NCBI RefSeq assembly: GCF_000510645.1
Contig: NZ_KI783301.1
Span: 1,370,705-1,434,704, forward strand
Origin: Thermicanus aegyptius DSM 12793
GTDB taxonomy: Bacteria > Bacillota > Bacilli > Thermicanales > Thermicanaceae
Length of the DNA stretch: 64,000 nt
Reading direction: 5' to 3'
Part shown: positions 42,051 to 61,244 of the stretch, piece after piece
Layout of the letters: each line of letters opens with the position of its first letter
Numbering within the stretch: the first letter of the stretch is position 1
Program-made: the position numbers and the translations under genes
Notes under the pieces: model-generated
Databases searched by the model: none
Told to the model about the DNA's origin: nothing
Seen by the model: the letters and a program-made list of their open reading frames with translations, nothing else

Positions 42051-44375
42051 ATGGAGAAATTGATCAATCGGCTGTTAAAAAAAACCGAAGGTACATATCT
42101 TGATTTTAAGAGAGACTTTTATAAGATTAATGACAAAAAGAGTAAAATCGATTTTGTAAAAGATATTTTGGCATTTGCTAATTCCACTATTAACGAACCT
42201 GCATATATTTTGTGTGGAGTTCAAGAGAAAGAGACAGGAGACAAAGAAGTAATTGGTATAGATCCCTCAATAAGGATTGATGACGCTAGTTGGGTGCAAT
42301 TCCTAAATTCATATGCGAGCCATCCAATAAATTTTTTTATGAAAAAGATTAAATCGGATTTATATAATAAAACATTCGTTTTGATTGAAATATCTACTAA
42401 TCAACAACGGCCTATTTTTTGTATTAAAGATGAAGGGGACAAACTCAAGAAAGGAAATATATACTTTAGAAATGGTTCTTCAAATGATATTGCTAAAGAT
42501 CTGGTAACACTTGAAATAATGATATCAAAAACTATGATGCAAGGAAATTCAAATTTGCAAGTATCGGATCCCACATATAATCGATATTCAAAATTTCCTC
42601 CAGCACCATATTATGAATTTATAGGACGTCGAGAAGAAATCAAAAAAATTTATGATGAGCTTATAGATCATCATAAAAATTACTTATTATCTTTGGTAGG
42701 TGATGGGGGTATAGGGAAAACTTCAATTGCTTATAAAGTGGCGGAAGAAATAAAAGACAAAATTGATGGTGGCGTAAGTAATTTTGATGATGTAATATGG
42801 ATTAGTGCAAAAGACCAAAGACTTTATTTTGATGAGAGAAGGGAACTAAATCCGGAGTTTCGCTCTTTAGATGATTTATTTAATAAAATACTATTAATTT
42901 TTTATGACGTAAATTATATAAAAGATATGAATAGAAGAAAAAAGTTAGATTTTGTTAACCAAGCGTTAGAAGGAACGAAATTCTTTTTTGTATTAGATAA
43001 TCTTGAAATATTTGACGGTGAGGAAATTAATCAAATTTATCAATTTATAAAAAATGCTCCATTTGGTCATAAATTCCTCCTCACATCAAGGCATGATTTA
43101 AGAGTACATGAATTTGTAAAGATAGAACGTTTTAATTTAGAAAGTTCTAGAGAATATATAAATAATCTAGTGATAAATTTAAATGTAAATGAAATAGACA
43201 AAGATGATATAATTAATAATTTTAATGAATTTTATACATTAACGAACGGAAATCCTTTATATATTAATTTTTTTATTTCACAAATACTTAGAGGAAGGAA
43301 ATTAAAAGATATCCTAGCAAAAAGGAATTTAGAATCAGAGAAATCACTAAAAGCATACTGTTTTGATTCTACATTGTCAAATTTATCTGGCGACGAACTC
43401 AAAGTCATGTACACCCTTGCAGTATCGGAACAAAACTTTTTATCATTCAACGAATTAAGATACGTCACATTAATACAGGAATCTTCTTTATTTAATATAA
43501 TTGGATCATTAACGTCGCATTCTTTAGTATACACAGAATACCAAAGAAATACGAAAGTCTACTCTTTAAATTGGTTACTAAAATCATACCTTTTAGAAGA
43601 AAAAAGGATCCCAGTAGGAGAATATACTAGGTTATATCAGAAAGTAAGGACAATCTCAATATTTAGTCATCCAATTAAGGAAGAATTAGCTTTTAATTTT
43701 GGATTACGATCACTTATAAATACAAATGAAATAATGTCTTATAACATGATATTGAATGTTCTGGACAATGTAAACAATCAAAATGTGGATAGCACTTTGG
43801 ATGACATAATTCGTCTATATCCTGGAAATTATTTAGTATATTTCTACAAAAATCTACTAAATATCTCAAATGGAACTAATTTATATAACGTTTATGCAAA
43901 TATAAATTCAGATTTCGCGCATATTTTAAGTGTTATAAAATATGATGAAGAACGCGTAATGTCATATGTCTGGAAGTCTTTTTTGTATATATTGATTGAT
44001 AAATACGACGATGTAATAAATGATATGGATATGTTAATTAACAATTCAAATAAAGATCATATAGAGTTAATTAATATTATCAAAGCCACGTGTTTAAGTA
44101 TGAAAGCATTCAATGAATATAGATATAATCGATTTAACTTACATGATCAACTCCGTGACGACGCTGACGTACTTTTTTCAAACAATTTAAGAGGTTTTAT
44201 TGGAAAACCTTACTTTTTATTTATTAAGAAAAATTTAATATATGCTTATAAACAGAACTTACTTCATGTGAAAAAAACTAAAATAAGTATTGAAAATGGA
44301 CAATTTGTCTCTGACATCCTCATATTAAAAGACTTAAAATTATTCACAAAAAAACCAGTGGTCAATTTAAAATAA
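42051..44375 (+). CDS. AlbA_2 (Schlafen-type) plus NB-ARC STAND NTPase protein, likely defence
   Basis: A 774-residue protein in three parts. Residues about 10-150 are an AlbA_2 putative nucleic-acid-binding domain (EGTYLDFKRDF, FVKDILAFANS, ILCGVQE, GNIYFRNGSS). Residues about 190-430 are an NB-ARC-type STAND ATPase: GRREEIKKIYD, Walker A GDGGIGKT at 217-224, Walker B FFFVLDNLE with D316, and the sensor-like LLTSRHD near 343. The remaining 340 residues are helical and lack a clear repeat family; they are the likely sensor. Such STAND proteins often act as single-gene anti-phage sensors that trigger an effector after ligand binding; here AlbA_2 would be the effector or DNA contact. Strongly AT-rich relative to the amino-acid transporter genes. 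GAGGGAGGAG is the ribosome site. Confidence 0.85.
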   Translation: MEKLINRLLKKTEGTYLDFKRDFYKINDKKSKIDFVKDILAFANSTINEPAYILCGVQEKETGDKEVIGIDPSIRIDDASWVQFLNSYASHPINFFMKKIKSDLYNKTFVLIEISTNQQRPIFCIKDEGDKLKKGNIYFRNGSSNDIAKDLVTLEIMISKTMMQGNSNLQVSDPTYNRYSKFPPAPYYEFIGRREEIKKIYDELIDHHKNYLLSLVGDGGIGKTSIAYKVAEEIKDKIDGGVSNFDDVIWISAKDQRLYFDERRELNPEFRSLDDLFNKILLIFYDVNYIKDMNRRKKLDFVNQALEGTKFFFVLDNLEIFDGEEINQIYQFIKNAPFGHKFLLTSRHDLRVHEFVKIERFNLESSREYINNLVINLNVNEIDKDDIINNFNEFYTLTNGNPLYINFFISQILRGRKLKDILAKRNLESEKSLKAYCFDSTLSNLSGDELKVMYTLAVSEQNFLSFNELRYVTLIQESSLFNIIGSLTSHSLVYTEYQRNTKVYSLNWLLKSYLLEEKRIPVGEYTRLYQKVRTISIFSHPIKEELAFNFGLRSLINTNEIMSYNMILNVLDNVNNQNVDSTLDDIIRLYPGNYLVYFYKNLLNISNGTNLYNVYANINSDFAHILSVIKYDEERVMSYVWKSFLYILIDKYDDVINDMDMLINNSNKDHIELINIIKATCLSMKAFNEYRYNRFNLHDQLRDDADVLFSNNLRGFIGKPYFLFIKKNLIYAYKQNLLHVKKTKISIENGQFVSDILILKDLKLFTKKPVVNLK

Positions 44376-44379
44376 CTCT

Positions 44380-44415
44380 CTTTTTCAGGAGTAACTAACT
44401 AGTTATTCCTGAAAA
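44380..44415. repeat. 17-base inverted repeat downstream of the STAND gene
   Basis: TTTTTCAGGAGTAACTA (44380-44396) and TAGTTATTCCTGAAAAA (44399-44415) pair over 17 bases with one G-T pair. It can act as a terminator for the gene ending at 44375. The right arm also matches, in inverse orientation, TTTTTCAGGAGCAACTAA near 46591-46608, so it may instead be an element end. Confidence 0.6.
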
Positions 44416-44448
44416 AGTGGATTTGCGGGAGAACCTATCTATCGTTAC

Positions 44449-44578
44449 TTATTTTCGAACCCAGTACCAAAGCCAATGCGTTTTTAATTGATGTTCATCG
44501 CACCATGCTTTAGCAGTCTTTCCACTTGCCTTAAAGTTGACCGCAGCAATCCATTCTTTACGTAATGCGAGTTTTGTC
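44449..44578 (-). pseudogene. IS66-type small ORF remnant
   Basis: The minus strand reads TKLALRKEWIAAVNFKASGK then TAKAWCDEHQLKTHWLWYWV and a stop, the pattern of the small TnpA-like protein of IS66 elements (xxWxxxVxxFxxSG.s...WC..h.i....yWvrk). A close relative occurs at 48809-48949 (MTKLALPKEWKDRVFDFKAS). The start codon position has CTG instead of ATG. No IS66 TnpB or TnpC follows. A relic. Confidence 0.65.
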
Positions 44579-44729
44579 AGAAAAACCCTCCATCCTGTTC
44601 TTTTTGGAGGATTATTTCATGAATATAATTGAGTTTGTAGGTATGGGAGTGTTTGACGTTTACGCCACCGCAATCTAAAGTAGAAAGCGGGAAGAATAGT
44701 TGGAATTTGATGAGAAACCGAAAACATGT

Positions 44730-44758
44730 TTGCAATCCATCACCTCATTTGCTATACT
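44730..44758 (+). promoter_or_regulatory. Promoter of rpn copy A
   Basis: TTGCAA (44730-44735) and TATACT (44753-44758) with an exact 17-base spacer, 54 bases before the GTG start. The same promoter is duplicated before copy C at 55077-55105. The -35 matches the consensus at four of six positions and the -10 at five of six. Confidence 0.75.
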
Positions 44759-44811
44759 CGATATAGGCATATATGTTCTCTTTATCTATTGTATCGGTGA
44801 GGTGATGAACG

Positions 44812-45819
44812 GTGGAGGAGAAACAGAATCAGCAATATAAGCAAGACAACCAAGGCAAGACGGAGTATATTCATCATGATCGTTTATTTAAAGAATTGAT
44901 TAAAATCTTTTTCGAAGATTTCATTTCGCTGTTCTTTCCAAATTTTCACCCTCTCATTTCTTTCGACTCGGTCACCTTCCTTTCCGAGGAAGTCTATACC
45001 GATGTGGTGAAAGGAGGCGAACGGAGGGTTGACCTTCTGGTAGAAACGAAGATCAAGGGGGTAGAGCGGCTCATCATCATCCATATTGAAGCCCAATCCT
45101 ATTATCAGGATGACTTTCATGAGAGAATGTTCATTTACTATAGCCGGCTTTATGAGAATCATCGCCGCCCGATTTTGCCCATTGCGGTATTTTCCTATGA
45201 TGAGAAACATGATGAACCGGATGCGTTTACCATTGAGGTCCCGGAGCTTCAAGTCCTTCAATTCCGTTATTTGACGGTGGAACTTAAGAAGAAAAACTGG
45301 AGAGATTATTTACGGTACGACCATCCAATTGCTGCTGCACTTCTCAGTAAAATGGGATATACTAAAGAAGAGAGAGTTGAAGTGAAGAAGGAATTTCTAC
45401 GGATGATCACACGCCTTGAACTAGATCCCGCTCGGCTCAACCTGATTACGGGATTCTTCGATACTTATCTAACCTTAAACGAAGAGGAGGAGAGGAAATT
45501 GCGCGAAGAGATTGGGCAGCTGCCGCAAGAGGAAGGAGCGGCGATCCTAAATATCATGAACTCTTATGAGAAGAAAGGATACGAACGTGGGAGAGAAGAA
45601 GGATTTGAAGAAGGAATAGAACAAGGAATTGAGAAAGGAATTAAGAAAGGAATTGAGCAAGGAATTGAAAAGGGAATAGAAAAAGGAATTGAGCAAGGAA
45701 AAATGGAAGATGCCCGGAAGATGCTTCTAAAGGGGATGGATGTGAATTTTATTCGGGATATTACAGAATTACCGCTAGAGAAGATTGAAGAATTGAAAAA
45801 GTCATTAGAAAGATCGTAA
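44812..45819 (+). CDS. Rpn-type PD-(D/E)XK nuclease/putative transposase, copy A (full length)
   Basis: A 335-residue member of the recombination-promoting nuclease family. HHDRLFKELIK (residues 21-31) opens the nuclease domain; the catalytic residues fit D74 in RRVDLLVETK and E93/Q95 in IIHIEAQSYY. A C-terminal helical domain follows, then a low-complexity stretch with seven-plus GIE(K/Q)GIE(K/Q)G repeats (residues about 265-300), and a conserved tail KMLLKGMDVNFIRDITELPL. GTG 44812 has GAGGTG 7 to 8 bases upstream. An ATG at 45403 (residue 198) preceded by AAGAAGGAA could start an internal C-terminal product, as known for RpnS proteins of this family. Known function: DNA cleavage and phage defence toxicity. 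One of five copies in the window. Confidence 0.9.
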   Translation: MEEKQNQQYKQDNQGKTEYIHHDRLFKELIKIFFEDFISLFFPNFHPLISFDSVTFLSEEVYTDVVKGGERRVDLLVETKIKGVERLIIIHIEAQSYYQDDFHERMFIYYSRLYENHRRPILPIAVFSYDEKHDEPDAFTIEVPELQVLQFRYLTVELKKKNWRDYLRYDHPIAAALLSKMGYTKEERVEVKKEFLRMITRLELDPARLNLITGFFDTYLTLNEEEERKLREEIGQLPQEEGAAILNIMNSYEKKGYERGREEGFEEGIEQGIEKGIKKGIEQGIEKGIEKGIEQGKMEDARKMLLKGMDVNFIRDITELPLEKIEELKKSLERS

Positions 45820-45835
45820 GCGATGTGTCGTCTTT

Positions 45836-45860
45836 GCGGGAATTTTATTCCCGCTTTTTT
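45836..45860 (+). terminator. Terminator of rpn copy A
   Basis: GCGGGAA (45836-45842), loop TTTTA, TTCCCGC (45848-45854), then six T. Intrinsic terminator 16 bases after the stop codon; the same structure follows copy B. Confidence 0.88.
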
Positions 45861-46131
45861 TACAAGACACAAAAACAACGATGTGAATGGGATGATCGCT
45901 TTCCCCGCCAATATCGGATTAAATCTAATCTTGGTTCATCCCATGGCGCATGGAGGGTTAGCCCTGACGTCACCTCGATCAGTTATACATTATCGGGTTA
46001 TTTACTTCTCCGGTCGTACAGCAAAAAAATCTGCAAGATCATGACGGCGGAAGTATGGATGACGATCGGTAAACGACCCATCAGCTCTGGTGTTGTCGAT
46101 CGTCGTTTAATTCTTGTATCCGTTCGGTTCC

Positions 46132-46275
46132 ATGGAGCAGTTCCATTTCGGTGTGAAGGCGGGTTGGCTATTTCTTGTGATGGCCATAGGGGCCGACGCT
46201 TATGCGGCCATGTTATGGGTCTTGAAGGAAACGATTTTTGTGGATTTAACGAAGCAAGCGAGAAGAAAAGGATGA
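46132..46275 (+). CDS. 47-residue membrane peptide in the rpn 3' flank
   Basis: ATG 46132 opens MEQFHFGVKAGWLFLVMAIG, then YAAMLWVLKETIFVDLTKQA and a basic end RRKG. A single hydrophobic segment of about 23 residues with a charged tail. In the copy at about 49970-50095 the ATG is ATA and a deletion shifts the frame, so only this one could be made. There is no clear ribosome site, so it may be the tail of a longer lost gene. Function unknown. Confidence 0.35.
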   Translation: MEQFHFGVKAGWLFLVMAIGADAYAAMLWVLKETIFVDLTKQARRKG

Positions 46276-46287
46276 TCACAGGCTTTA

Positions 46288-46482
46288 TACCATCATATCA
46301 AATTTTTAAAGGAATTGAAGGATTATCGCAAAGACAAATTGCGAAACAACTTGGGATTTCTCGAAATACCGTCCGCAAACACCTATCGAATCAAACAGCT
46401 CCAACGGTCATTCATCGGACCAAGGAAAATTCCGCTGGGGAAAGCCCTTTTTTGCCACCTATATTCATCCATTTATGGAAGT
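46288..46482 (+). pseudogene. IS21-type transposase (IstA) N-terminal remnant
   Basis: Reads GLSQRQIAKQLGISRNTVRK followed by HLSNQTAPTVIHRTKENSAG and SPFLPPIFIHLW, the helix-turn-helix and linker of IstA-like proteins, then stops. No catalytic domain follows. A relic embedded between the rpn flank and the FRG gene. Confidence 0.65.
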
Positions 46483-46587
46483 AAGCGATTCGAAAATGGC
46501 TCACTTTTTAAGTGATCGCCCTGGCTCAATTTATTGTTGATTTGCGAGTCCTAAAAATTAATGAAATAAATGCAATGTTCATAAATG

Positions 46588-46610
46588 GATTTTTTCAGGA
46601 GCAACTAATT
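46588..46610. repeat. Inverse partner of the repeat at 44399
   Basis: TTTTTCAGGAGCAACTAATTA, reverse-complemented, matches TAGTTATTCCTGAAAAA at 44399-44415 with two differences. The pair brackets a 2.2-kb segment holding an IS66 remnant, rpn copy A and an IS21 remnant. It also overlaps the stop codon of the FRG gene. Confidence 0.5.
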
Positions 46611-47349
46611 ATCTCCATGCAGGGGGAATCAAGGTGTTATTAATATGATTAGATAACCCTTCTAAGTCAGGAAACAAAGTAAACCTATTTATACCATTAT
46701 GATAAAGAAATCTCACTGCATCTTCTTTGATATCAAGAGTAAGTTCAAATGCCTTAATGATGTTATTTGTTATAAGATTCCCTTCAAATTCCTCTTCAAG
46801 GGGTAACATTGAATTCCCCTGAACAGTAAATACACCATTTTGAGCTACAATACGTTTATTACTTTTTATAGGGTATATTGCTATCGATTTTTGATTTGGA
46901 TCCTCGAAATGTTTAGGATATTCTATTGCCTGGGGAGATAATATTTCATTCTTTCCCAACGATAACCTATTAAGTTCTGTAGGCTTTAATACCCAAATTT
47001 TTGCTGTACCGTTTGTCCACCCATCCAAAGCAAAAAATAACGCAACCGACATACTCTCCGTCCAATCAAGAAGTCTAGTTTTAACACCGTGGTGTTGCAT
47101 TGAATAAAGTAAGTTCCAACCAGCTTCATTGTTGTGTATTAAATAGCCGAGGTTTTTATAGTAGGTGTACAGTTGTTTTTCCAGAGTAAGGTACTTTTCA
47201 AGACTCTTGTTATCAGGATTTAGTCTAAACAGTCCTGAATTAAGTTTATAAGTAGAATTGTTATGGCCACGGAACCAAGCTGTACCATCATAACTACGGG
47301 TAAAATCATCAATTTTATCAAGGAGACTTTTCCACTTTTGGCTAAACAT
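46609..47349 (-). CDS. FRG-domain protein, likely defence effector
   Basis: A 246-residue protein with the FRG hallmark: AWFRGHNNSTY (W25, R27, G28), and MQHHGVKTRLLDWTESMSVA at about 84-103, followed by ALFFALDG. These match the FRG consensus, in which the conserved arginine, histidine and aspartate suggest an enzymatic pocket; FRG proteins appear in anti-phage and toxin-antitoxin settings, though the reaction is not established. It is divergently transcribed from the DGQHR gene, start-to-start distance about 80 bases, indicating a shared control region. GGAGGTG precedes the ATG. AT-rich. Confidence 0.85.
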   Translation of the reverse strand: MFSQKWKSLLDKIDDFTRSYDGTAWFRGHNNSTYKLNSGLFRLNPDNKSLEKYLTLEKQLYTYYKNLGYLIHNNEAGWNLLYSMQHHGVKTRLLDWTESMSVALFFALDGWTNGTAKIWVLKPTELNRLSLGKNEILSPQAIEYPKHFEDPNQKSIAIYPIKSNKRIVAQNGVFTVQGNSMLPLEEEFEGNLITNNIIKAFELTLDIKEDAVRFLYHNGINRFTLFPDLEGLSNHINNTLIPPAWR

Positions 47350-47437
47350 CTATCAGAAACACCTCCTTGAAAAGGATATCATTTAATATGGTATTATGCT
47401 ATATTAAAATTAATTTATTAATAATGGGGTGAGTCAG

Positions 47438-48436
47438 TTGGTTAAATCTGATACTTCAGGGATAGCAGCTATACTTGTTACTCAAGGTGAATTTCGATTT
47501 TACATAGCTGCAATGCCCTCTTATATTCTGAGAGAAACATGTTTTACAATCACACGGGAAGCAGATCCTAAAGAAGGGTTTCAACGTGTGTTGAATGAGG
47601 AAAGGGCAAAAAAAATAGCAACCTATATTGATTCAGGAAGTGGTTCTATTCCAACCGCTATCATCTTATCTGCACAACCCCAATCTGAATTGAAATATAA
47701 TTCAAAATCTAAGACGATTTCTTTCAAAAACGATGAAAAAGCATTTTTAATTATTGATGGACAACATAGGGTCTACGGGTTTATAAAGGCAAATCAGTCT
47801 ATCAGGGTTCCTGTGGTTATTTATGAAGAATTGACTCGGGTTCAAGAAGCAAGATTGTTTATTGATATAAATACAAATCAAGAACAGGTACCAGAGGCAC
47901 TCTTGCTTGATGTTAAGACACTACTTAAAAATGAAACAGAAGATGAAAAACGTTGCAGTGAATTGTTTGACATTTTTTATAACCATGATTCAAGTGTTCT
48001 TAAAGGTAAACTCGATAGGGCTACGCGAACTCAAGGTAAAATTTCCCGTATAACATTTAATAAATCCGTGATAGAACTTTTAAAAAATGAGCTAAAAGAA
48101 TTGCCTATGGAGAAATCTTATATTGTTATCAACAATTATTTAAAAGCTTGCCAAAAAGTGTTTACGGAGATAGATAGTAGATTATCAAATCTAATGTACA
48201 AACCAGTTTCATTTGAGGGGTTACTGAGAAGTGCAAAAGCAGTTATTGATAAAGCAACAACAAAATATGATAAACTGAGTTACGAAACATTTTACGATGT
48301 GGTGAAAGTATTAAAGGACAATATTTCAAAGGAAAGATTACTACGGCCGGGCAATTCACCTAAGAGATTTTCTGAAAGCATTATTCAGGGAATTACAACT
48401 ATATACATAAGACCGAATTCTGTAGTAGAAGATTAA
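47438..48436 (+). CDS. DGQHR-domain protein (DndB-like)
   Basis: About 332 residues. The motif AFLIIDGQHRVYGF is at residues about 103-116, with VNEERAKKIATYIDSGSGSIPT-like strand before it and LFIDINTNQEQVPEALLLDV after it, all typical of DGQHR proteins. DndB, a regulator of DNA phosphorothioation, belongs to this family; other members are of unknown role in mobile islands. The start is TTG 47438 (GGGGTGAG 5 bases upstream) or GTG 47429. It is divergent from the FRG gene, so they form a module. No dndC/D/E genes are visible here, so phosphorothioation control is unlikely unless in trans. Confidence 0.85.
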   Translation: MVKSDTSGIAAILVTQGEFRFYIAAMPSYILRETCFTITREADPKEGFQRVLNEERAKKIATYIDSGSGSIPTAIILSAQPQSELKYNSKSKTISFKNDEKAFLIIDGQHRVYGFIKANQSIRVPVVIYEELTRVQEARLFIDINTNQEQVPEALLLDVKTLLKNETEDEKRCSELFDIFYNHDSSVLKGKLDRATRTQGKISRITFNKSVIELLKNELKELPMEKSYIVINNYLKACQKVFTEIDSRLSNLMYKPVSFEGLLRSAKAVIDKATTKYDKLSYETFYDVVKVLKDNISKERLLRPGNSPKRFSESIIQGITTIYIRPNSVVED

Positions 48437-48808
48437 GTTTTTAGTTTGGGGGTTGAAATAGCCCTCCATTTTTATAATATCCTTAAGAAGGAACCAGACT
48501 TTAGCATCTTTCGTAAACCATATGGCGACAATAGAGCTCCAACTGTTTCTTCAAAGAGATCACTTCATCTGCGAATAAGTAAATTCCGTTCATCCGGCGA
48601 CCTTAGCCAAATGGGTCGAGTATTCATCAAGATGAACTTTGATGAGTTTGTTGTTAGCCTTTTTTTAGTTTGGTGAAACCTCTTACCCGTCAGATATGTG
48701 AGATAGTAGTATAGGCGTATGACTGCTATGTAAGCTCAATTACTCCACGCCTACAACCTCCGTTGCATTCATAAGACCTCCATAAAGATCAATATGAAGG
48801 TTTTTTTC
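48437..48808. other. Gap between DGQHR gene and IS66 remnant
   Basis: About 370 bases. A 76-codon frame (48446-48676) reads IALHFYNILKKEPDFSIFRK but has no relatives that I recognise and no ribosome site. Nothing further can be supported. Confidence 0.35.
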
Positions 48809-48949
48809 ATGACGAAGTTAGCATTACCTAAAGAATGGAAAGATCGGGTGTTTGACTTTAAGGCAAGCAGGAAGACCGCCAAGTCTTGGTGTTTAAAAAA
48901 ATATCAAGGATCATCAACTATGATGATGGATTCGAATCGAATCTGCTAA
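48809..48949 (+). pseudogene. IS66-type small ORF, second remnant
   Basis: MTKLALPKEWKDRVFDFKAS then RKTAKSWCLKKYQGSSTMMM, stopping after 46 residues. It is the plus-strand relative of 44449-44578 (TKLALRKEWIAAVNFKASGK), sharing also the upstream GAAGGTTTTTTTCATGA region. Truncated relative to the IS66 protein. Between here and 49095 no gene is seen. Confidence 0.6.
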
Positions 48950-49095
48950 GATCCCACCCCAGAACATTTCAGTGGATTCAGGTTCAGATGGATAAATTAT
49001 GGCGGGACTGAGGTACAACTAAATCTTCCTTTATTTAACGATTATTTAACGAAAACGGAGAGATTACAGATCCTGCTGCCATAGAGGTCGACTTT

Positions 49096-49653
49096 TTGAA
49101 AATCAGTCGCCCGATTTTGCCTATTGCGGTATTTTCCTATGATGAGAAACATGATGAACTGGATGCGTTTACCATTGAGTTCCCGGAGCTTCAAGTCCTT
49201 CAATTCTGTTATTTGACGGTGGAACTCAAGAAGAAAAACTGGAGAGATTATTTACGGTACGACCATCCAATTGCTGCTGCACTTCTCAGTAAAATGGGGT
49301 ATACTAAAGAAGAGAGAGTTGAAGTGAAGAAAGAATTTCTACGGATGATCACACGCCTACAACTAGATCCCGCTCGGCTCAATCTGATTACGGGATTCTT
49401 CGATACTTATCTAACCTTAAACGAAGAGGAGGAGAGGAAATTGCGTGAAGAGATTGGGCAGCTGCCGCAAGAGGAAAGTACTGCGATTCTAAATATCATG
49501 AACTCATATGAGAAGAAAGGATATGAGCAAGGAAAAATGGATACAGCCCGAAAGTTGCTTCTAAAGGGGATGGATGTGAATTTTATTCGGGATATTACAG
49601 AATTACCGTTAGAGAAGATTGAAGAATTGAAAAAGTCGTTAGAAAGATCGTAA
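49096..49653 (+). pseudogene. Rpn-type nuclease gene, copy B (5' truncated)
   Basis: Similarity to copy A begins abruptly near 49108 (RPILPIAVFSYDEKHDE, residue 119 of A). The catalytic D and E/Q are therefore absent. The C-terminal domain is fully open: 185 residues from TTG 49096, containing LLSKMGYTKEERVEVKKEFL and LQLDPARLNLITGFFDTYLT, no GIE repeats (direct KKGYEQGKMDTARK), and the tail KLLLKGMDVNFIRDITELPL. The internal ATG equivalent to A residue 198 is at 49346 (ATGATCACACGCC). Not a nuclease, but may make a C-terminal protein that binds the full-length ones. Confidence 0.75.
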
Positions 49654-50248
49654 ACGATGAGCCGTCTTTGCGGGAATTTTATTCCCGCATTTTTATTTTT
49701 ACAAGACACAAAAAACGATGTGAATGGGATGATCGCTTTCCTCGCCAATATCGGATTAAATCTAATCTTGGTTCATCCCATGGCGCATGGAGGGTTAGCC
49801 CTGACGCCACCTCGATCAGTTATACATTATCCGGTTATGTACTTCTCCGGTCGTACAGCAAAAAAATCTGCAAGATCATGACGGTAGATGTGTGGATAAC
49901 GATTGGTAAAACGACCGAATCAGGTCTGGTGATGTCGATGGTCGTTTAATTCTTGTACCCGTTCGGTTCCATAGAGCAGCTCCATTACGTTGTGAAGGCG
50001 GGTTGGTTATTTCTTGTGATAGCCGTAGGGACCGGCCATGTTGTGGGTCTTGAAGGAAACGATTTTTGTGGATTTGACCAGGCAAGCGCTTGGAAAATTG
50101 AAAAGGAGTTTTGCACGCGGATTAAGATGAGTTAAAATAAAAGCATATGAAATGAATCATGATTTGTCCTAAAAAACAACCACAGAAAAATGCTAACTTT
50201 GTGAAATAGATCGAAAAATGGGCAAAAAAGATTAAGAGGGATGAGGGA
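49654..50248. repeat. 3' flank of rpn copy B, with terminator
   Basis: The terminator GCGGGAA (49670-49676), TTCCCGC (49682-49688) is followed by T-rich sequence. The rest matches 45820-46275. The 47-codon frame of copy A is broken here (ATG to ATA at 49972 and a deletion near 50030). The last 100 bases before the next gene are AT-rich and not shared. Confidence 0.7.
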
Positions 50249-53200
50249 ATGAGCAGCAATCCGTCCGTGTATCAAAAATTGGAGAAGGCTCGACAAGAAT
50301 TACTGGACCTTGGATTACGGAATTCTCTACTGAATTACCGTCTTTTGAAAGCCCGTGGTTTGGAAGTGGTGGATGGATCACCGCAGGATGTTTTTGAAAT
50401 TCTGGTTCGCAATAAAAAATCGGTAACCTTTTTGCCCAAGAGAGAAAATGAGAACGAATTGCTGCTTTCTGAAACGGAATCTAATGTAAATGAAAAAGAA
50501 ATGCTCTCTTCGCAAGAGGATCTTTTACCATCCCAACAGCGCGTTCCGGAACCTAAGTTGAATACGAATTTGACAGAAAAACAATTACAAGCAAGGTTGT
50601 TAAATACATATTATACAGCTCAAACTTTTATTGAAGAGCAGGGCGTTAACATATTGTATATGGCTCTTGGAATGTTGCGCTGGTATGAATCCGAAAGCAG
50701 TAAAGAGGTTCGAAAGGCTCCACTGATTTTGATTCCGGTAAAACTGGAACGGATAAATGCGCGGGAACGGTTCAGAGTATCTTCCACTGAGGAAGATATT
50801 GGCTTCAACTTATCCCTGATCACAAAGGCGAAGGCGGAATTCGGGATTTCCATTCCAACTCTTCCGGAAGAAGAGGAAATCGATGTCGCTCAATATTTTC
50901 TTCAGGTGGAAGAAGCAATTCAGAGCGAGCCTCGGTGGTCGGTGGACAGACAGGCCATCGTTCTGGGATTTTTTTCATTTGGCAAGTTTCTTATGTACCG
51001 GGATTTAGACGTAACCAACTGGCCGGAAGAATGGAAGCCTACCGAACATGATATCCTTCTTAGTTTGCTAAATGACGGATTTTCGGAACCGGTTTCCGCT
51101 ATTCAAGATGACGATTTTATGGATCCGCATGTTTCATTCCACGATATGCATCATGTGATGGATGCGGACAGCTCGCAGCTGCAGGCAATTCTCGATGTGA
51201 ACAGTGGCCGGAATCTGGTCATCCAGGGTCCTCCAGGAACGGGAAAATCACAGACAATCACCAATATCATAGCCGAAGCGGTGGCCCGTGGGAAAACGGT
51301 ATTATTCGTTTCGGAAAAAATGGCTGCCTTGGAAGTGGTCAAAAGACGGCTGGATCACGTTGGATTGGGGGATGCCTGTCTCGAATTACATAGCCACAAA
51401 ACTAACAAAAAAACGTTCCTTAACGAATTGGCCAGAACGTTGGAATTGAGAAAACCGAAAGTGAAAGATTTTGACGAAGAGGTTCAAGTGCTGGAGAATT
51501 TTCGTCGACGGCTTAATGATTATTGTGTGGGGATTCATACACCGGTGGGGGAAAGTGGGTTAACCCCTTATCAACTATTAGGTGAACTGGTGCGTTTCAG
51601 GCACAAGTTTGGTGACGACTTTATTTTCCCCTCTCTGGAAATCGACGGGATGGTGAAATGGGATCGCTCTACGTTTCAGCACCGTATTCTGCTCGTGGAG
51701 GAACTCCAGAAACTGTTGGGTGCGTTGGGAAATCCAAAGGAGCATCCGTTTTGGGGAAGCGGCCGAACCGTCTTTTTGCCAACGGAAGTGGGAAAGTTAA
51801 GGGAGACGGTGACTAAGACGAAACAAGCTTTCGAAACCTTAAAGGAATCTTCACGAGTGTTAGCGCAAATAATGCGCACAGAAACTATTCAGGACGTAAA
51901 AGATGTCGAGATGGTCGGTGTTGTCGCAAGTAAAATACTAGAAGCGCCAGATTTGCAAGGGGTTCGAATCGATGCGGACGAATGGACGCAACAAGTGGAT
52001 GAAATCCAACATCTCGTATCGTCGGGATTAAAATTTTCTTCATTGCAACATCGATACCGGGATATCCTGATTCCCGAGGCGTGGGATCAGGATCTACTCG
52101 ATATACGCCAAACGCTCATGACGTATCACAAAAAATGGTTGCGATGGTTATCGGGATCCTATCGAAAAGCAAAGAAGAAGTTGTTTCGTTTATATAAGGA
52201 CAGCTCTGGTAAAAAATTGGATGACCTTCAAGTTGTCGAGGATATCATGGAAACACAGCGTCATCAACAGTTCATTCAAAGCATGGACGCCGTGGGCTCT
52301 TCTTGTTTTGGTGTGCATTGGAAGAAAGAGCAATCGGATTGGGTTCGCTTCAACGAGTGGGTTCAATGGTTGTTTCCATTCTACAAAGAGATCCAATCTG
52401 GCCATATTCCGGGATGGATCATTCCTCTATTAACCGCACCTTTGAATCGAACGAAATTAGAAAACAGCATTGTAACGGTCGGACAACAATTGGAGCAGTT
52501 CCGAGAATGTGGTGCAGAGTTGGAAAACCTTCTGGAGCTTAATACTTCCGTTAAGTTCGGAAATTGTCAGTCGCTTTCGGATCAAGCGTTTCAAGAGTTG
52601 AATGAGCAGTTTAAGAGTTGGGTGGATCATGCAGATTCGATACAAACGTTAGTTTCCTATAACTTGCTGTGCGACACATGCAACAAGGAAAAGTTGGAGG
52701 CCATCGTGTCGCTCAGCCGCACTTGGGAACATGCCTCACAGCGATTAACCGATCTTTTCCGTTTTACATGGTATGATGCGTTGATCAAGCAAGCCTTTCA
52801 GGAACGGTCTGTTTTGGCCCAGTTTGATGGGGATCGCCATCGTCATGTGGTGGAAACGTTTCAGGAATTGGATCGAGCTCTTTTGGAATACAACAAAATG
52901 AAACTGGTCGAAATCCATTGGAAAAAGATTCCCCAGTATGATGCAGGAGGACAACTGGGGGTTCTGAAGCGTGAATTTGAAAAGAAAAGGGGACATCTGC
53001 CCATTCGTCGGCTCATGGAAAATGCTGGTTATGCAATCCAAGCCCTCAAACCGGTCTTTATGATGGGGCCACTCTCGATCGCTACCTATCATCCGCAGGA
53101 GAGTGTGAAATTTGACCTGGTAATATTTGATGAAGCGAGTCAGGTTAAGCCGGTTGACGCGTTCGGAGCCATTCTTCGAGGAAAACAGGTGGTAGTCGTT

Positions 53201-54982
53201 GGAGACAGCAAACAAATGCCTCCGACCCATTTCTTTGATTCACTCACCAAAGGGGAAGAAAGCGAAGAGGATAACACCGTTGGCGATATGGAGAGTATCT
53301 TGGGGCTCTTTTTGGCTCAAAATGCGCCACGGCGGATGCTCCGTTGGCATTATCGGAGTCGGCACGAATCATTAATCGCTGTGTCCAACTTGGAGTTTTA
53401 CGACAATCGGCTCGTGGTTTTTCCAAGCCCAGACTTGAAAAAAGATCGTTCGGGACTGGTGTTTCATTACCTGCCGCATGGCAGGTATGACCGCGGGCGT
53501 AACCGAACCAATGCGGAAGAAGCCAGAGCCGTGGCACAGGCGGTTATGGAGCACGCCAAGCGGTATCCCCATTTATCATTGGGCGTTGCCGCTTTCAGCG
53601 TTGCGCAAATGCAGGCAATTCAAGACCAGCTGGAACTTTTGCGTCAGGAGGACCCGTCATGCGAATCGTTTTTCCAAGCGCATCCCCATGAACCGTTCTT
53701 TGTAAAAAATTTGGAAAATGTCCAAGGTGATGAACGGGACGTAATGTTCATCAGTATCGGTTACGGCAAAACCGAAGACGGGTATTTATCCATGGATTTC
53801 GGAGCGCTAAATCGCGACGGAGGGGAGCGGAGACTGAACGTGCTGATCACTCGCGCTCGCTTTCGTTGCGAAGTGTTTGCCAATATGACAGATTATGATA
53901 TCGATTTAAGTCGTACTCAAGCCCAAGGCATGAAAGCACTGAAAACGTTCCTGAGATACGCTCGAACAGGCATCTTGGAAATTCCCAAGGACACGGACAG
54001 GGAGGCGGACTCTCCTTTTGAGGAAGTGGTGGCGGAGACGATCCGCTCGATGGGATATGAAGTGAGAAAACAGGTCGGATCCGGAGGATTCTACATCGAT
54101 TTGGCCGTCGTCGATCCAGAATCGCCTGGCCGTTATGTGCTGGGGGTGGAGTGCGATGGAGCCACCTATCATAGCGCCAGGTCGGCGCGGGATCGTGATC
54201 GGTTAAGGCAACAAGTGCTGGAGGGATTGGGGTGGTACATTCACCGGATATGGAGTACCGACTGGTTTCGCCATCCGGATCGTGAACAAAAACGGCTTGC
54301 TGAGGCCATTGAGAAAGTACGGCTCCAAATAAAGTCAAGCATATTGGTGGAAGTTCGGGAAGAAATTACGAATGTTTTTTCTCTGGAACGGGAAGATAGC
54401 ATTGCGCGGGAAGAACAAAAATCTGTAACTCCTTATCAATGTGCTAGTTTAAACATCGATATGTTCGGTTTCGAATTTCATAAGCTTCCAACCCAACAGA
54501 TTGCATTATGGGTCCTAGAGGTGGTGAAAGTCGAGAGCCCTGTGCATATTCATGAAGTTATAAAAAGAATTTGTGAGGCAGCAGGCATTAAACGTGCAGG
54601 CAATCGCATACAGGAAGCGGTGGAAAAGGCTTGCAGAGCGTTAGCCCGATTGGGGAAAGTTGAAATAAAAGGAGATTTTCTCTGGTTAGAAGGGATGAAG
54701 CGACCGGATATTCGAGATCGCAGTCACCTTCCTGCTTCATCCAAAAAACTGGATTTGGTTTCAACGGAAGAGATCTGGGTTGCCATCGAAAGAGTAGTCT
54801 CCGTTGCGTTGGGGATAAAAGAAGATGACATTACACCTGCTGTTTGCAGATTATTGGGTTTTATGAGAGTAACGGAGGAAATGAAGGATCGCATTGAAAA
54901 GATTATTTCTAAGATGATAGCAGAGAACGTGTTGGAGAAGCAGGGATCTCATTGTATTTTAACGAACGAGATTTCCCTATAA
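50249..54982 (+). CDS. DUF4011 helicase with Vsr-like nuclease, likely defence
   Basis: A 1577-residue protein, intact. The opening KARQELLDLGLRNSLLNYRL (residues 13-32) is DUF4011. Superfamily 1 helicase motifs: GPPGTGKS at 327-334, IFDEASQ with D961, GDSKQMPP from 985, WHYRSRHESLI, VQGDERDVMFISIGYG near 1158, and LITRAR from 1199. The C-terminal REase of the MTES_1575/Vsr kind shows SPFEEVVAETIRSMGYEV, D1284 in FYIDLAVV, and E1301 with D1303 in GVECDGATYHS, then HRIWSTDWFRHP. The tail includes a DUF3320-like region. Such single-gene helicase-nucleases are found in anti-phage islands. Flanked by copies B and C of rpn. ATG has GGGATGAGGG upstream. Confidence 0.9.
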   Translation: MSSNPSVYQKLEKARQELLDLGLRNSLLNYRLLKARGLEVVDGSPQDVFEILVRNKKSVTFLPKRENENELLLSETESNVNEKEMLSSQEDLLPSQQRVPEPKLNTNLTEKQLQARLLNTYYTAQTFIEEQGVNILYMALGMLRWYESESSKEVRKAPLILIPVKLERINARERFRVSSTEEDIGFNLSLITKAKAEFGISIPTLPEEEEIDVAQYFLQVEEAIQSEPRWSVDRQAIVLGFFSFGKFLMYRDLDVTNWPEEWKPTEHDILLSLLNDGFSEPVSAIQDDDFMDPHVSFHDMHHVMDADSSQLQAILDVNSGRNLVIQGPPGTGKSQTITNIIAEAVARGKTVLFVSEKMAALEVVKRRLDHVGLGDACLELHSHKTNKKTFLNELARTLELRKPKVKDFDEEVQVLENFRRRLNDYCVGIHTPVGESGLTPYQLLGELVRFRHKFGDDFIFPSLEIDGMVKWDRSTFQHRILLVEELQKLLGALGNPKEHPFWGSGRTVFLPTEVGKLRETVTKTKQAFETLKESSRVLAQIMRTETIQDVKDVEMVGVVASKILEAPDLQGVRIDADEWTQQVDEIQHLVSSGLKFSSLQHRYRDILIPEAWDQDLLDIRQTLMTYHKKWLRWLSGSYRKAKKKLFRLYKDSSGKKLDDLQVVEDIMETQRHQQFIQSMDAVGSSCFGVHWKKEQSDWVRFNEWVQWLFPFYKEIQSGHIPGWIIPLLTAPLNRTKLENSIVTVGQQLEQFRECGAELENLLELNTSVKFGNCQSLSDQAFQELNEQFKSWVDHADSIQTLVSYNLLCDTCNKEKLEAIVSLSRTWEHASQRLTDLFRFTWYDALIKQAFQERSVLAQFDGDRHRHVVETFQELDRALLEYNKMKLVEIHWKKIPQYDAGGQLGVLKREFEKKRGHLPIRRLMENAGYAIQALKPVFMMGPLSIATYHPQESVKFDLVIFDEASQVKPVDAFGAILRGKQVVVVGDSKQMPPTHFFDSLTKGEESEEDNTVGDMESILGLFLAQNAPRRMLRWHYRSRHESLIAVSNLEFYDNRLVVFPSPDLKKDRSGLVFHYLPHGRYDRGRNRTNAEEARAVAQAVMEHAKRYPHLSLGVAAFSVAQMQAIQDQLELLRQEDPSCESFFQAHPHEPFFVKNLENVQGDERDVMFISIGYGKTEDGYLSMDFGALNRDGGERRLNVLITRARFRCEVFANMTDYDIDLSRTQAQGMKALKTFLRYARTGILEIPKDTDREADSPFEEVVAETIRSMGYEVRKQVGSGGFYIDLAVVDPESPGRYVLGVECDGATYHSARSARDRDRLRQQVLEGLGWYIHRIWSTDWFRHPDREQKRLAEAIEKVRLQIKSSILVEVREEITNVFSLEREDSIAREEQKSVTPYQCASLNIDMFGFEFHKLPTQQIALWVLEVVKVESPVHIHEVIKRICEAAGIKRAGNRIQEAVEKACRALARLGKVEIKGDFLWLEGMKRPDIRDRSHLPASSKKLDLVSTEEIWVAIERVVSVALGIKEDDITPAVCRLLGFMRVTEEMKDRIEKIISKMIAENVLEKQGSHCILTNEISL

Positions 54983-55159: not shown

Positions 55160-56083
55160 GTGGAGGAGAAACAGAATCAGCAATATAAACAAGACAACCA
55201 GGGCAAGACGGAGTATATTCATCATGATCGTTTATTTAAAGAATTGATTAAAATCTTTTTCGAAGATTTCATCTTGCTGTTCTTTCCAAATTTTCATCCT
55301 CTCATTTCCTTCGACTCGGTCACCTTCCTTTCCGAGGAAGTCTATACCGATGTGGTGAAAGGTGGCGAACGGAGGGTTGACCTTCTGGTAGAAACGAAGA
55401 TCAAAGGAGTCGAGCGGCTTATCATCATCCATATTGAAGCCCAATCCTATTATCAGAATGACTTTCATGAGCGGATGTTCATTTACTATAGCCGGCTTTA
55501 TGAGAATCATCGCCGCCCGATTTTGCCCATTGCGGTATTTTCCTATGATGAGAAACATGATGAACCGGATGCGTTTACCATTGAGTTCCCGGAGCTTCAA
55601 GTCCTTCAATTCCGTTATTTGACGGTGGAACTTAAGAAGAAAAACTGGAGAGATTATTTACGGTACGACCATCCAATCGCTGCTGCGCTTCTCAGTAAAA
55701 TGGGGTATACTAAAGAAGAGAGAGTTGAAGTGAAGAAAGAATTTCTACGGATGATCACACGCCTACAACTAGATCCCGCTCGGCTCAACCTGATTACGGG
55801 ATTCTTCGATACCTATTTACACTTAAACGAAGAGGAGGAGAGGAAATTGCGTGAAGAAATTGGGCAGCTGCCGCAAGAGGAAAGTGCAGCGATTCTAAAT
55901 ATCATGAACTCATATGAGAAGAAAGGATATGAACAAGGGATTGAAAAGGGAATTGAGCAAGGAAAAATGGAAGATGCCCGAAAAATGCTTCTAAAGGGGA
56001 TGGATGTGAATTTTATTCAGGAAATTACTGAATTACCGCTGGAGAAGATTGAAGAATTGAAAAAGTCGTTAGAAAGATCGTAA
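55160..56083 (+). CDS. Rpn-type PD-(D/E)XK nuclease/putative transposase, copy C (full length)
   Basis: A 307-residue protein, nearly identical to copy A through the nuclease domain (D74, E93/Q95 retained) and differing in the repeat tract: only one GIEKGIEQG run (YEQGIEKGIEQGKMED) against the longer run in A. The C-terminal tail KMLLKGMDVNFIQEITELPL differs by two residues. GTG 55160 with GAGGTG upstream. Its 3' flank is not shared with A or B; sequence diverges 7 bases after the stop. Likely active. Confidence 0.9.
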   Translation: MEEKQNQQYKQDNQGKTEYIHHDRLFKELIKIFFEDFILLFFPNFHPLISFDSVTFLSEEVYTDVVKGGERRVDLLVETKIKGVERLIIIHIEAQSYYQNDFHERMFIYYSRLYENHRRPILPIAVFSYDEKHDEPDAFTIEFPELQVLQFRYLTVELKKKNWRDYLRYDHPIAAALLSKMGYTKEERVEVKKEFLRMITRLQLDPARLNLITGFFDTYLHLNEEEERKLREEIGQLPQEESAAILNIMNSYEKKGYEQGIEKGIEQGKMEDARKMLLKGMDVNFIQEITELPLEKIEELKKSLERS

Positions 56084-60074: not shown

Positions 60075-60660
60075 ATGAGAAAAATACAGCTTTCTATCCC
60101 TGCGGTTCCTGTTCATAAAAACGAACTGCTTCACACCAGCAAGGGAAAAAACACCAGACTGTACGAAATTCTCTTCCCCCATCGGCAAGGATTGGAGGCG
60201 CATATTCGGAGAAGATTGCGCATTGGTGTTGTCCGGAAATTTGACTTATTTTGTGAGTAACCGTGATACTATCGAAGCTGAGCCGGGCAGCATCGTGTTC
60301 GGTTGGCAAAATGTTTTGCATGGATACCTGAACCAAGAAAATGAGCCGGTCCACCTGCTTGTTTTTGTCACCCCGGCTAAAATAGGATTGGTTTATCCCG
60401 ATGATGAGGATCCGGTTGTGCGAAAAGTTGCTGTGGAACGTCGCAAAGTGAACATTGAAGAAGAAGTAGATGTTTTATCCGAATATTCATCGTTTCAGAC
60501 AGTTCTCGTGCATGGCCGATACGAAGAGCCGGAAGAGCCGGATGCATACAAAGTTTTTGTGAATTGGAGAAAGAAACAAATTTTCATTTTTGATCGAGAA
60601 AAAGTGGAACTGGCGACCGACGAGCCGATTCGTCTGCTGAAATATGTGGCGAAGAGTTAA
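60075..60660 (+). pseudogene. Cupin-domain protein gene with one frameshift
   Basis: ATG 60075 (AAAGGAGAGATAT upstream) begins MRKIQLSIPAVPVHKNELLH then LYEILFPHRQGLEAHI. Near 60208 the frame shifts by one; continuing in the new frame gives GEDCALVLSGNLTYFVSNRD, IEAEPGSIVFGWQNVLHGYL and PVHLLVFVTPAKIGL, a classic cupin barrel, to a stop at 60660. The metal-ligand positions are not all present. A sequencing error is possible. Role unknown; a small-molecule-binding or sulfur-related cupin is compatible with the neighbouring methionine genes. Confidence 0.7.
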
Positions 60661-60833
60661 GCTGGTGTCTCTCCTTTATCATCGAAAGTGGAGAACAATA
60701 TGCGCCACAGGCCGTAACGACCGTGAATTCTGCCGCATCGTCATTGTGTAACCCGTAAAGGAAAAGAGAGAGTCGAGCCTCGTGTTGGAGCGAAGCCCAT
60801 GAAACACGTGAAGAACTTGGAAGCGCAGCGAGA
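60661..60833. other. Gap between cupin gene and rpn copy E
   Basis: About 170 bases, no gene. It ends AGCGCAGCGAGATTGGTAG just where rpn similarity begins. Confidence 0.35.
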
Positions 60834-61244
60834 TTGGTAGAGGTGAAGAAGGAATTTCTACGCATGATCACACGCCTTGAACTAGATCCCGCTCGGCTCA
60901 ACCTGATTACGGGATTCTTCGATACCTATTTAAACTTAAACGAAGAGGAGGAGAGGAAATTGCGCGAAGAGATTGGGCAGCTACCGCAAGAGGAAGTTGA
61001 GGCGATCCTGAATATCATGAACTCTTATGAGAAGAAAGGATATGAACGGGGGAGAGAAGAAGGATTTGAACAAGGAATAGAACAAGGAATTGAGAAAGGA
61101 ATTGAAAAGGGAATTGAGCAAGGAAAAATGGAAGATGCCCGGAAGATGCTCTTAAAGGGGATGGATGTGAATATTATTCGGGATATTACAGAATTACCGC
61201 TAGAGAAGATTGAAGAATTGAAAAAGTTGTTAGGGAAGAATTGA
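60834..61244 (+). CDS. Rpn C-terminal-domain protein, copy E (candidate RpnS-like antitoxin)
   Basis: Homology to rpn begins at about 60842, so only the C-terminal part remains: 136 residues from TTG 60834, or 126 from ATG 60864, which corresponds exactly to the internal ATG at residue 198 of copy A and retains its AAGAAGGAA ribosome site 9 bases upstream. Contains LELDPARLNLITGFFDTYLN, the GIEQGIEKGIEKGIEQG repeat, and MLLKGMDVNIIRDITELPLE. Family knowledge: Escherichia coli rpn genes make such short C-terminal proteins from internal starts as inhibitors of the nuclease. Here a stand-alone gene would do so. No strong promoter was found. Confidence 0.7.
   Translation: MVEVKKEFLRMITRLELDPARLNLITGFFDTYLNLNEEEERKLREEIGQLPQEEVEAILNIMNSYEKKGYERGREEGFEQGIEQGIEKGIEKGIEQGKMEDARKMLLKGMDVNIIRDITELPLEKIEELKKLLGKN

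Follow-up and report, generated by a model that had tools for sequence, protein, structure and literature searches.

Truncated rpn copies of Thermicanus aegyptius retain an RpnS-type module, and two of the three match no resident full-length subfamily copy in repeat number

The stretch of the Thermicanus aegyptius chromosome analysed here (64,000 nucleotides, hereafter the window; positions 1370705-1434704 of a genome that forms one contig of 3.66 Mb) carries five copies of a single Rpn subfamily on its + strand, two of them full length and three 5'-truncated. The locus therefore raises the question of whether the truncated copies serve as stand-alone antitoxins, so that gene fragmentation raises the antitoxin dose, as the initial annotation had proposed, or whether they are leftovers of the family. 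The five copies are as follows.

44812-45819, + strand: copy A, full-length Rpn-family nuclease gene, 335 aa, 11 in-register glycines
about 49089/49108-49653, + strand: copy B, N-terminally truncated, starting at about residue 118 of A, 2 in-register glycines
55160-56083, + strand: copy C, full-length Rpn-family gene, 307 aa, 4 in-register glycines
about 57149/57151-57723, + strand: copy D, N-terminally truncated, starting at about residue 100 of A, 4 in-register glycines
about 60834-61244, + strand: copy E, stand-alone C-terminal rpn frame, 126-aa product from ATG60864, 8 in-register glycines

Full-length copies of the same subfamily also lie outside the window.

1837875-1838765 and 178661-179557, both - strand: full-length copies L064 and L065

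The assignment of these genes to the Rpn family (TIGR01784/COG5464) was confirmed by the scores of A and C (55.9 and 56.7 bits), which exceed the TIGR01784 cut-off of 52.1 bits; PF12784 (Pfam) was matched below its cut-off only. In an alignment of 20 sequences, the PD-(D/E)XK residues D74, E93 and Q95 were invariant, and the genes also show the Rpn trait of a C-terminal tract of four-residue repeats whose number varies among full-length copies. A search with the whole of A against solved structures returned no match. Comparison of the five copies showed that D74 and E93-x-Q95 are kept in A and C and are absent from B, D and E, while the C-terminal frames of the latter are open, in agreement with the initial annotation. 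The description of these copies as C-terminal halves is correct with regard to the truncation itself but not for D, which keeps residues from about 100 onward. D also contains a 16-codon deletion that is common to two distant full-length copies, and it ends 3 codons early. In E, the homology begins at about residue 189-191 of A and is far above chance (87% DNA identity over 433 alignment columns, E = 3e-160). The 450 bp 3' of A are common to B and to the distant copy L064, and a terminator-like element lies just behind A.

45836-45854, + strand: terminator-like hairpin and T-run, just 3' of A

A second Rpn subfamily in the genome shows a similar pattern: L012 (L012:1111-1710) encodes 200 aa without the N-terminal part, and its full-length paralogue L014 (L014:787-1698), which encodes 304 aa, is located elsewhere in the genome; the two appear to be one repeat unit apart.

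The part that remains in the truncated copies resembles RpnS. In the AlphaFold2 model of the 126-aa product of E, a long repeat helix is followed by two short helices at the C-terminus; the mean pLDDT is 67, and the C-terminal blocks lie mostly between 74 and 89. The modelled C-terminus superposed on the crystal structure of RpnA-S (7TH0) at 0.9 A over 42 columns (TM 0.85, target); the Foldseek E-value of this comparison, 4.1, is not significant for a domain so small. A whole-fold search with the E model yielded mainly chance matches between helices (best E-value 0.9), and only the 7TH0 superposition was used. A profile of the rpn C-termini studied here aligned to 7TH0 only from the repeat region onward. 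The three-helix RpnS module is thus kept without the nuclease residues, in E according to the model and in B and D according to the alignment. As judged by profile and model, the truncated copies encode a module whose form matches that of E. coli RpnS, and B, D and E are orphan RpnS modules of a known kind. Stand-alone RpnS genes derived from rpn copies have been described in E. coli, namely ypaA/rpnES beside rpnE and a second gene, rpnCS, beside rpnC (Zhong et al. 2023, PMC10327210), and the proposal that such modules stand alone is consequently not new.

In E. coli, whether such a module can neutralise a given nuclease depends on the repeats: one extra four-residue repeat on either partner abolishes neutralisation, which is restored if both partners carry the extra repeat (PMC10327210). 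The in-register glycines of the full-length copies number 11 in A, 4 in C, 7 in L064 and 6 in L065, and those of the truncated copies number 2 in B, 4 in D and 8 in E. The repeat number of B and that of E therefore match no full-length subfamily copy in the genome, and D matches only C, which sits 1.1 kb upstream of it. A repeat number equal to that of a full-length target, as expected of an RpnS antitoxin, was found for D and not for B or E; one in-register match out of three is not remarkable. Given the one-repeat rule and these counts, B and E should not neutralise the resident subfamily copies, while D could neutralise C by the same rule. The proposal of stand-alone antitoxins thus holds in that the RpnS module is kept, as the 7TH0 superposition indicates, but its claim of added dose is not supported by the register.

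The match of D to its close neighbour C, together with the RpnS-type domain of all three copies, nevertheless speaks for retention of the truncated copies as functional antitoxins that add RpnS dose against the resident Rpn toxins. A comparable arrangement was found in another genus (L059, genome G128), where a full-length rpn gene with 6 repeats is followed by two tandem C-terminal genes (L059:878-2352) of 87 aa each, which apparently have their own starts (MGKMSIEIREEV and MGKMSIKIREEV). These tandem genes carry 4 repeats each, however, and are likewise out of register with their full-length neighbour. We consider such a gain in antitoxin dose improbable, and the substitutions and start sites described below also bear on it.

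Private changes were counted in 106 non-repeat C-terminal codons. The truncated copies together carried 13 nonsynonymous and 8 synonymous changes (B, 3 N:2 S; D, 7 N:2 S; E, 3 N:4 S), corresponding to a dN/dS of about 0.63 (p = 0.33 versus neutrality), whereas the four full-length copies pooled carried 2 N:7 S (dN/dS 0.11, p = 0.003 versus neutrality); the contrast between the two groups gave a Fisher p of 0.11, and since these within-genome tests rest on few changes, selection after a recent truncation stays compatible with them. Ka/Ks over all retained codons was uninformative (17 N:15 S versus 12 N:21 S, p = 0.22), and the pairwise dN/dS of E against A was 0.09. The Ka/Ks check on B, D and E that had been proposed for the locus thus agrees with neutral change when the copies are pooled, but gives a different impression for E alone, whose private changes favour neither a relic nor a constrained gene. 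D, the copy with the most amino-acid-changing substitutions, includes L>P, F>L and E>V among its C-terminal private changes and looks neutral, that is, it appears to evolve as if unconstrained; this argues against an added dose from the one copy that is in register.

The open frames themselves had been taken as a sign of selection, on the grounds that random decay should have introduced a stop into one or more of the three copies. If all 21 private changes were neutral, however, the probability of finding no stop in B, D and E would be 0.46, and the open frames are therefore not evidence of selection. No frame-breaking indels were found in the C-terminal frames of the three copies. The sole neutral yardstick is the downstream flank common to A and B, which has 31 mismatches and 5 gaps in 451 bp; by hand calculation, about 1.8 indels would be expected in the 318 coding bases of B if it had been neutral since the A/B flank split, and none was seen (P about 0.17). 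The lack of indels in B supports constraint weakly, and the truncation may postdate the split. We infer that the truncated copies are probably under no current selection.

An antitoxin made from these frames would need a translation start, and the codon named in the initial annotation is one of three start candidates for these copies. In A they lie as follows.

45403-45405, + strand: ATG, codon 198 of A, the internal start named in the initial annotation, with AAGAAGGAA upstream (predicted SD pairing -6.2 kcal/mol, spacing 9)
45499-45501, + strand: TTG, codon 230 of A, candidate alternative internal start, GAGGAGGAGAGGAAA-TTG (about -11 to -12 kcal/mol)
45556, + strand: ATG, third start candidate in A

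In E, the candidate starts are 60864 (ATG), 60960 (TTG) and 61017 (ATG). Alignment of the copies confirmed that ATG60864 of E is codon 198 of A; ATG45403 in A and ATG55751 in C are the same codon, and its counterparts lie at 49345 in B and 57400 in D. The AAGAAGGAA site reported before this codon occurs in A, D, E and L064, but not in B, C or L065 (AAGAAAGAA), and the predicted SD pairing falls from -6.2 kcal/mol with AAGAAGGAA to -1.4 kcal/mol with AAGAAAGAA. The codon-198 Met is kept in 27 of 28 homologues, where it lies inside a strongly conserved motif, KKEFLRMLVRLELD. The SD strength at this codon equals the synonymous null across the 28 homologues (mean -2.4 versus -2.6 kcal/mol); with no selected ribosome-binding site in the relatives, codon 198 was rejected as a conserved internal start, and it is probably not the internal start of the family. 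Positions 1-89 of the PADLOC profile PDLC01084 (C3a178, 'putative invertase', 90 aa) align to A198-310, so that the profile begins at the codon-198 Met. This speaks in favour of codon 198 and is an indication that short proteins beginning at this Met have been annotated in other places; a start set by a gene caller is not proof of translation, and most matches to the profile in 399 genomes lie inside full-length frames.

A different position shows signs of selection in relatives. In 13 of 26 relatives, an ATG occurs about 10 residues before the four-residue repeats, with SD pairing of up to -12.9 (GAGGAGG), and the excess of SD strength over the synonymous null at this ATG has a p of about 0.001 (z-scores averaged within genera, hand calculation); relatives with Leu at this codon show no such excess. 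The position corresponds to the proven start M244 of RpnA, some 8 residues ahead of the RpnA repeats, whereas codon 198 of A lies about 60 residues before its repeats. As in the genes studied here, the full-length form of the intragenic toxin-antitoxin RpnA/RpnA-S (7TH0) is a PD-(D/E)XK protein with a C-terminal repeat helix. In the T. aegyptius copies the pre-repeat codon is Leu (CTA, CTG or TTG), and the next ATG follows 3 codons on with poor spacing. The strongest SD site of the C-terminal region in these copies is that of TTG230 (GAGGAGGAG). All seven copies in the genome have this TTG, and GAGGAGGAGAGGAAA precedes it in six; D reads GTGGAGGAGAGGAAA, with an SD of -9.3. As a family-wide start, TTG230 was rejected because its site is strong in the T. 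aegyptius genome only (relatives, -6.1 versus a null of -5.9), and we regard it as a local start candidate.

Across the class, C-terminal pieces outnumber N-terminal ones. Among 399 genomes, T. aegyptius included, about 10-12 clean C-only copies whose frame is open as far as the normal C-terminus (counted from B, D, E, L060, L063, L099, L107, L108, L120, L121, the L059 event and L012) were found against 0-1 N-only copies; 5-14 candidates were scored per genome, the copies are partly non-independent, and four come from the T. aegyptius genome, the genomes drawn for comparison including no other of the same genus or family. This ratio is more asymmetric than simple decay predicts, and its direction fits either an antitoxin or a harmless fragment that survives where a lone nuclease part does not. 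The excess of C-only copies in relatives can accordingly be cited for an added antitoxin dose, but it may also reflect only counter-selection of N-only, uncontrolled nucleases or recombination in the repeat tract, with the C-only pieces being harmless and drifting. The sole clean N-only piece, L140, breaks off shortly before the final catalytic residue and may represent the missing half of L107, which lies on the same strand at a distance of 38 kb. The other N-terminal pieces are full genes split by a frameshift or nonsense change in which the C part is still there; both observations are consistent with counter-selection or recombination. This explanation, which concerns the bias only, leaves the tandem L059 genes with their own starts and the long-term retention of rpnES in E. 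coli unexplained. We regard it as a tentative possibility, one that refines the view of the truncated copies as relics and does not exclude it.

C-terminal rpn copies do decay, as indicated by what is apparently one truncated C-terminal rpn fragment sharing a frameshift in two species of one genus (L098:1912-2248 and L110:928-1300). In the T. aegyptius genome, decayed rpn pieces are located at 1438400-1444000 (L067), and an RpnS-like frame that is broken C-terminally lies at about 2089.7 kb.

The E. coli genes offer the closest comparison. RpnES has been detected as a protein (PMC10327210), a precedent for functional stand-alone antitoxins; ypaA is annotated as a pseudogene or as partial in many records despite this detection. 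Like B, D and E, RpnES (ypaA) and RpnCS are short separate genes that keep the RpnS module of a paralogous rpn. At the rpnE-ypaA loci of 22 strains (L118 and L142-L163), the repeat number of RpnES differed from that of the neighbouring RpnE in every one of the 10 distinct haplotypes, the difference ranging from 1 to 6 repeats, so that RpnES shares with B and E a repeat number out of register with a full-length gene, in its case the adjacent one. Since RpnES also fails in 10 of 10 haplotypes, an equal repeat number may not define the stand-alone kind. Because of these mismatches, stand-alone RpnS would not simply add dose for the gene next to it, provided that the one-repeat rule holds generally. 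The two sets of genes also differ: ypaA begins exactly where the RpnS module does, its ATG has AAGGAG a short distance upstream, and the gene follows rpnE directly, whereas B, D and E begin far upstream of the repeats and are separated by 1-5 kb from a full-length copy, and E borders on intron debris.

The RpnES frame is intact in the 22 strains and its tail looks constrained (pN/pS 0.33, 4 N:5 S). As the tail of this expressed, out-of-register protein appears to be under constraint, register mismatch alone is not proof of lost function, and out-of-register orphan RpnS proteins may have been kept for another job, such as immunity or anti-addiction directed at Rpn toxins from other strains or from incoming elements, or the modulation of other Rpn complexes through mixed oligomers. 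The absence of a match in any of the 10 E. coli haplotypes, the bias towards C-only retention, the frames of B, D and E that are open without indels, and the private changes of E would fit such a role. However, shuffling the full-length and stand-alone lengths among the E. coli haplotypes gave no match 57% of the time, from which it follows that the RpnE/RpnES mismatch needs no selection and that nothing holds the pair in register; moreover, B and D show no constraint. We therefore think it unlikely that the orphans were kept for another job. If stand-alone RpnS is generally out of register, in T. aegyptius, in another genus and in E. coli, it would form a separate layer against foreign Rpn toxins or modulators of mixed oligomers and not a dose booster, a generalisation that we hold to be doubtful.

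The surroundings of the copies bear on how the truncations arose. Immediately upstream of E lies an intron-derived segment.

60708-60833, + strand: group II intron remnant, fused to the 5' end of E

This remnant is 84% identical over 131 columns to G000:C1:315052-315182, a stretch that adjoins an intron of the Rfam family RF02003, and the 5' end of E is therefore read as a junction created by rearrangement, with intron debris on its other side. Upstream of E, promoter-like sequences did not exceed chance level, and no plasmid-borne relatives of E were found. The gene 5' of E (60075-60660) has a good ribosome-binding site at its start (60075) and appears to be frame-broken near 60225, with its second half continuing in another frame. 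Defence-type genes are interspersed among the rpn copies (42051-54982), including a PDC-S50-like gene at 42051, PDC-S15 at 46609, a DGQHR (DndB-like) gene at 47429 and a ProA/PDC-S37 helicase of 1577 aa at 50249.

Taken together, the observed family membership, truncations, repeat counts, junctions and substitution counts make it moderately probable that B, D and E are N-terminally truncated relics, either decaying or mismatched orphans, and not an extra dose of antitoxin. B, D and E would have arisen as the Rpn gene family duplicated inside a defence island, where recombination and intron-linked rearrangement would have removed the PD-(D/E)XK part, so that the C-terminal RpnS module, consisting of a long repeat helix and a small helical bundle, remained as an open frame. 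Each truncated copy, if translated, would be an orphan RpnS. B and E, whose repeat numbers differ from those of all full-length subfamily copies in the genome, would not neutralise those copies, and D, in register with C alone, nonetheless appears unconstrained and is the copy most readily taken to be decaying; that effective neutralisation is lacking would follow from the published one-repeat rule. Because their repeat numbers pair with no nuclease of the family in this genome, B and E are likelier to be relics or mismatched leftovers than extra antitoxin. The idea that fragmentation raises the antitoxin dose is thus not supported, given the register of B and E, the neutral-looking changes of D and the lack of a selected ribosome-binding site at codon 198 in relatives.

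The T. aegyptius genes are Gram-positive-type relatives of the E. coli stand-alone RpnS, with four full-length copies and three orphans of one subfamily in a single genome. The finding that none of the 10 E. coli haplotypes is in register raises the question of what role a stand-alone RpnS has if it is unable to bind its neighbour. The natural set described here makes the published repeat-number rule directly testable: the rule predicts that D blocks C and no other copy, and that no subfamily member is blocked by B or E.
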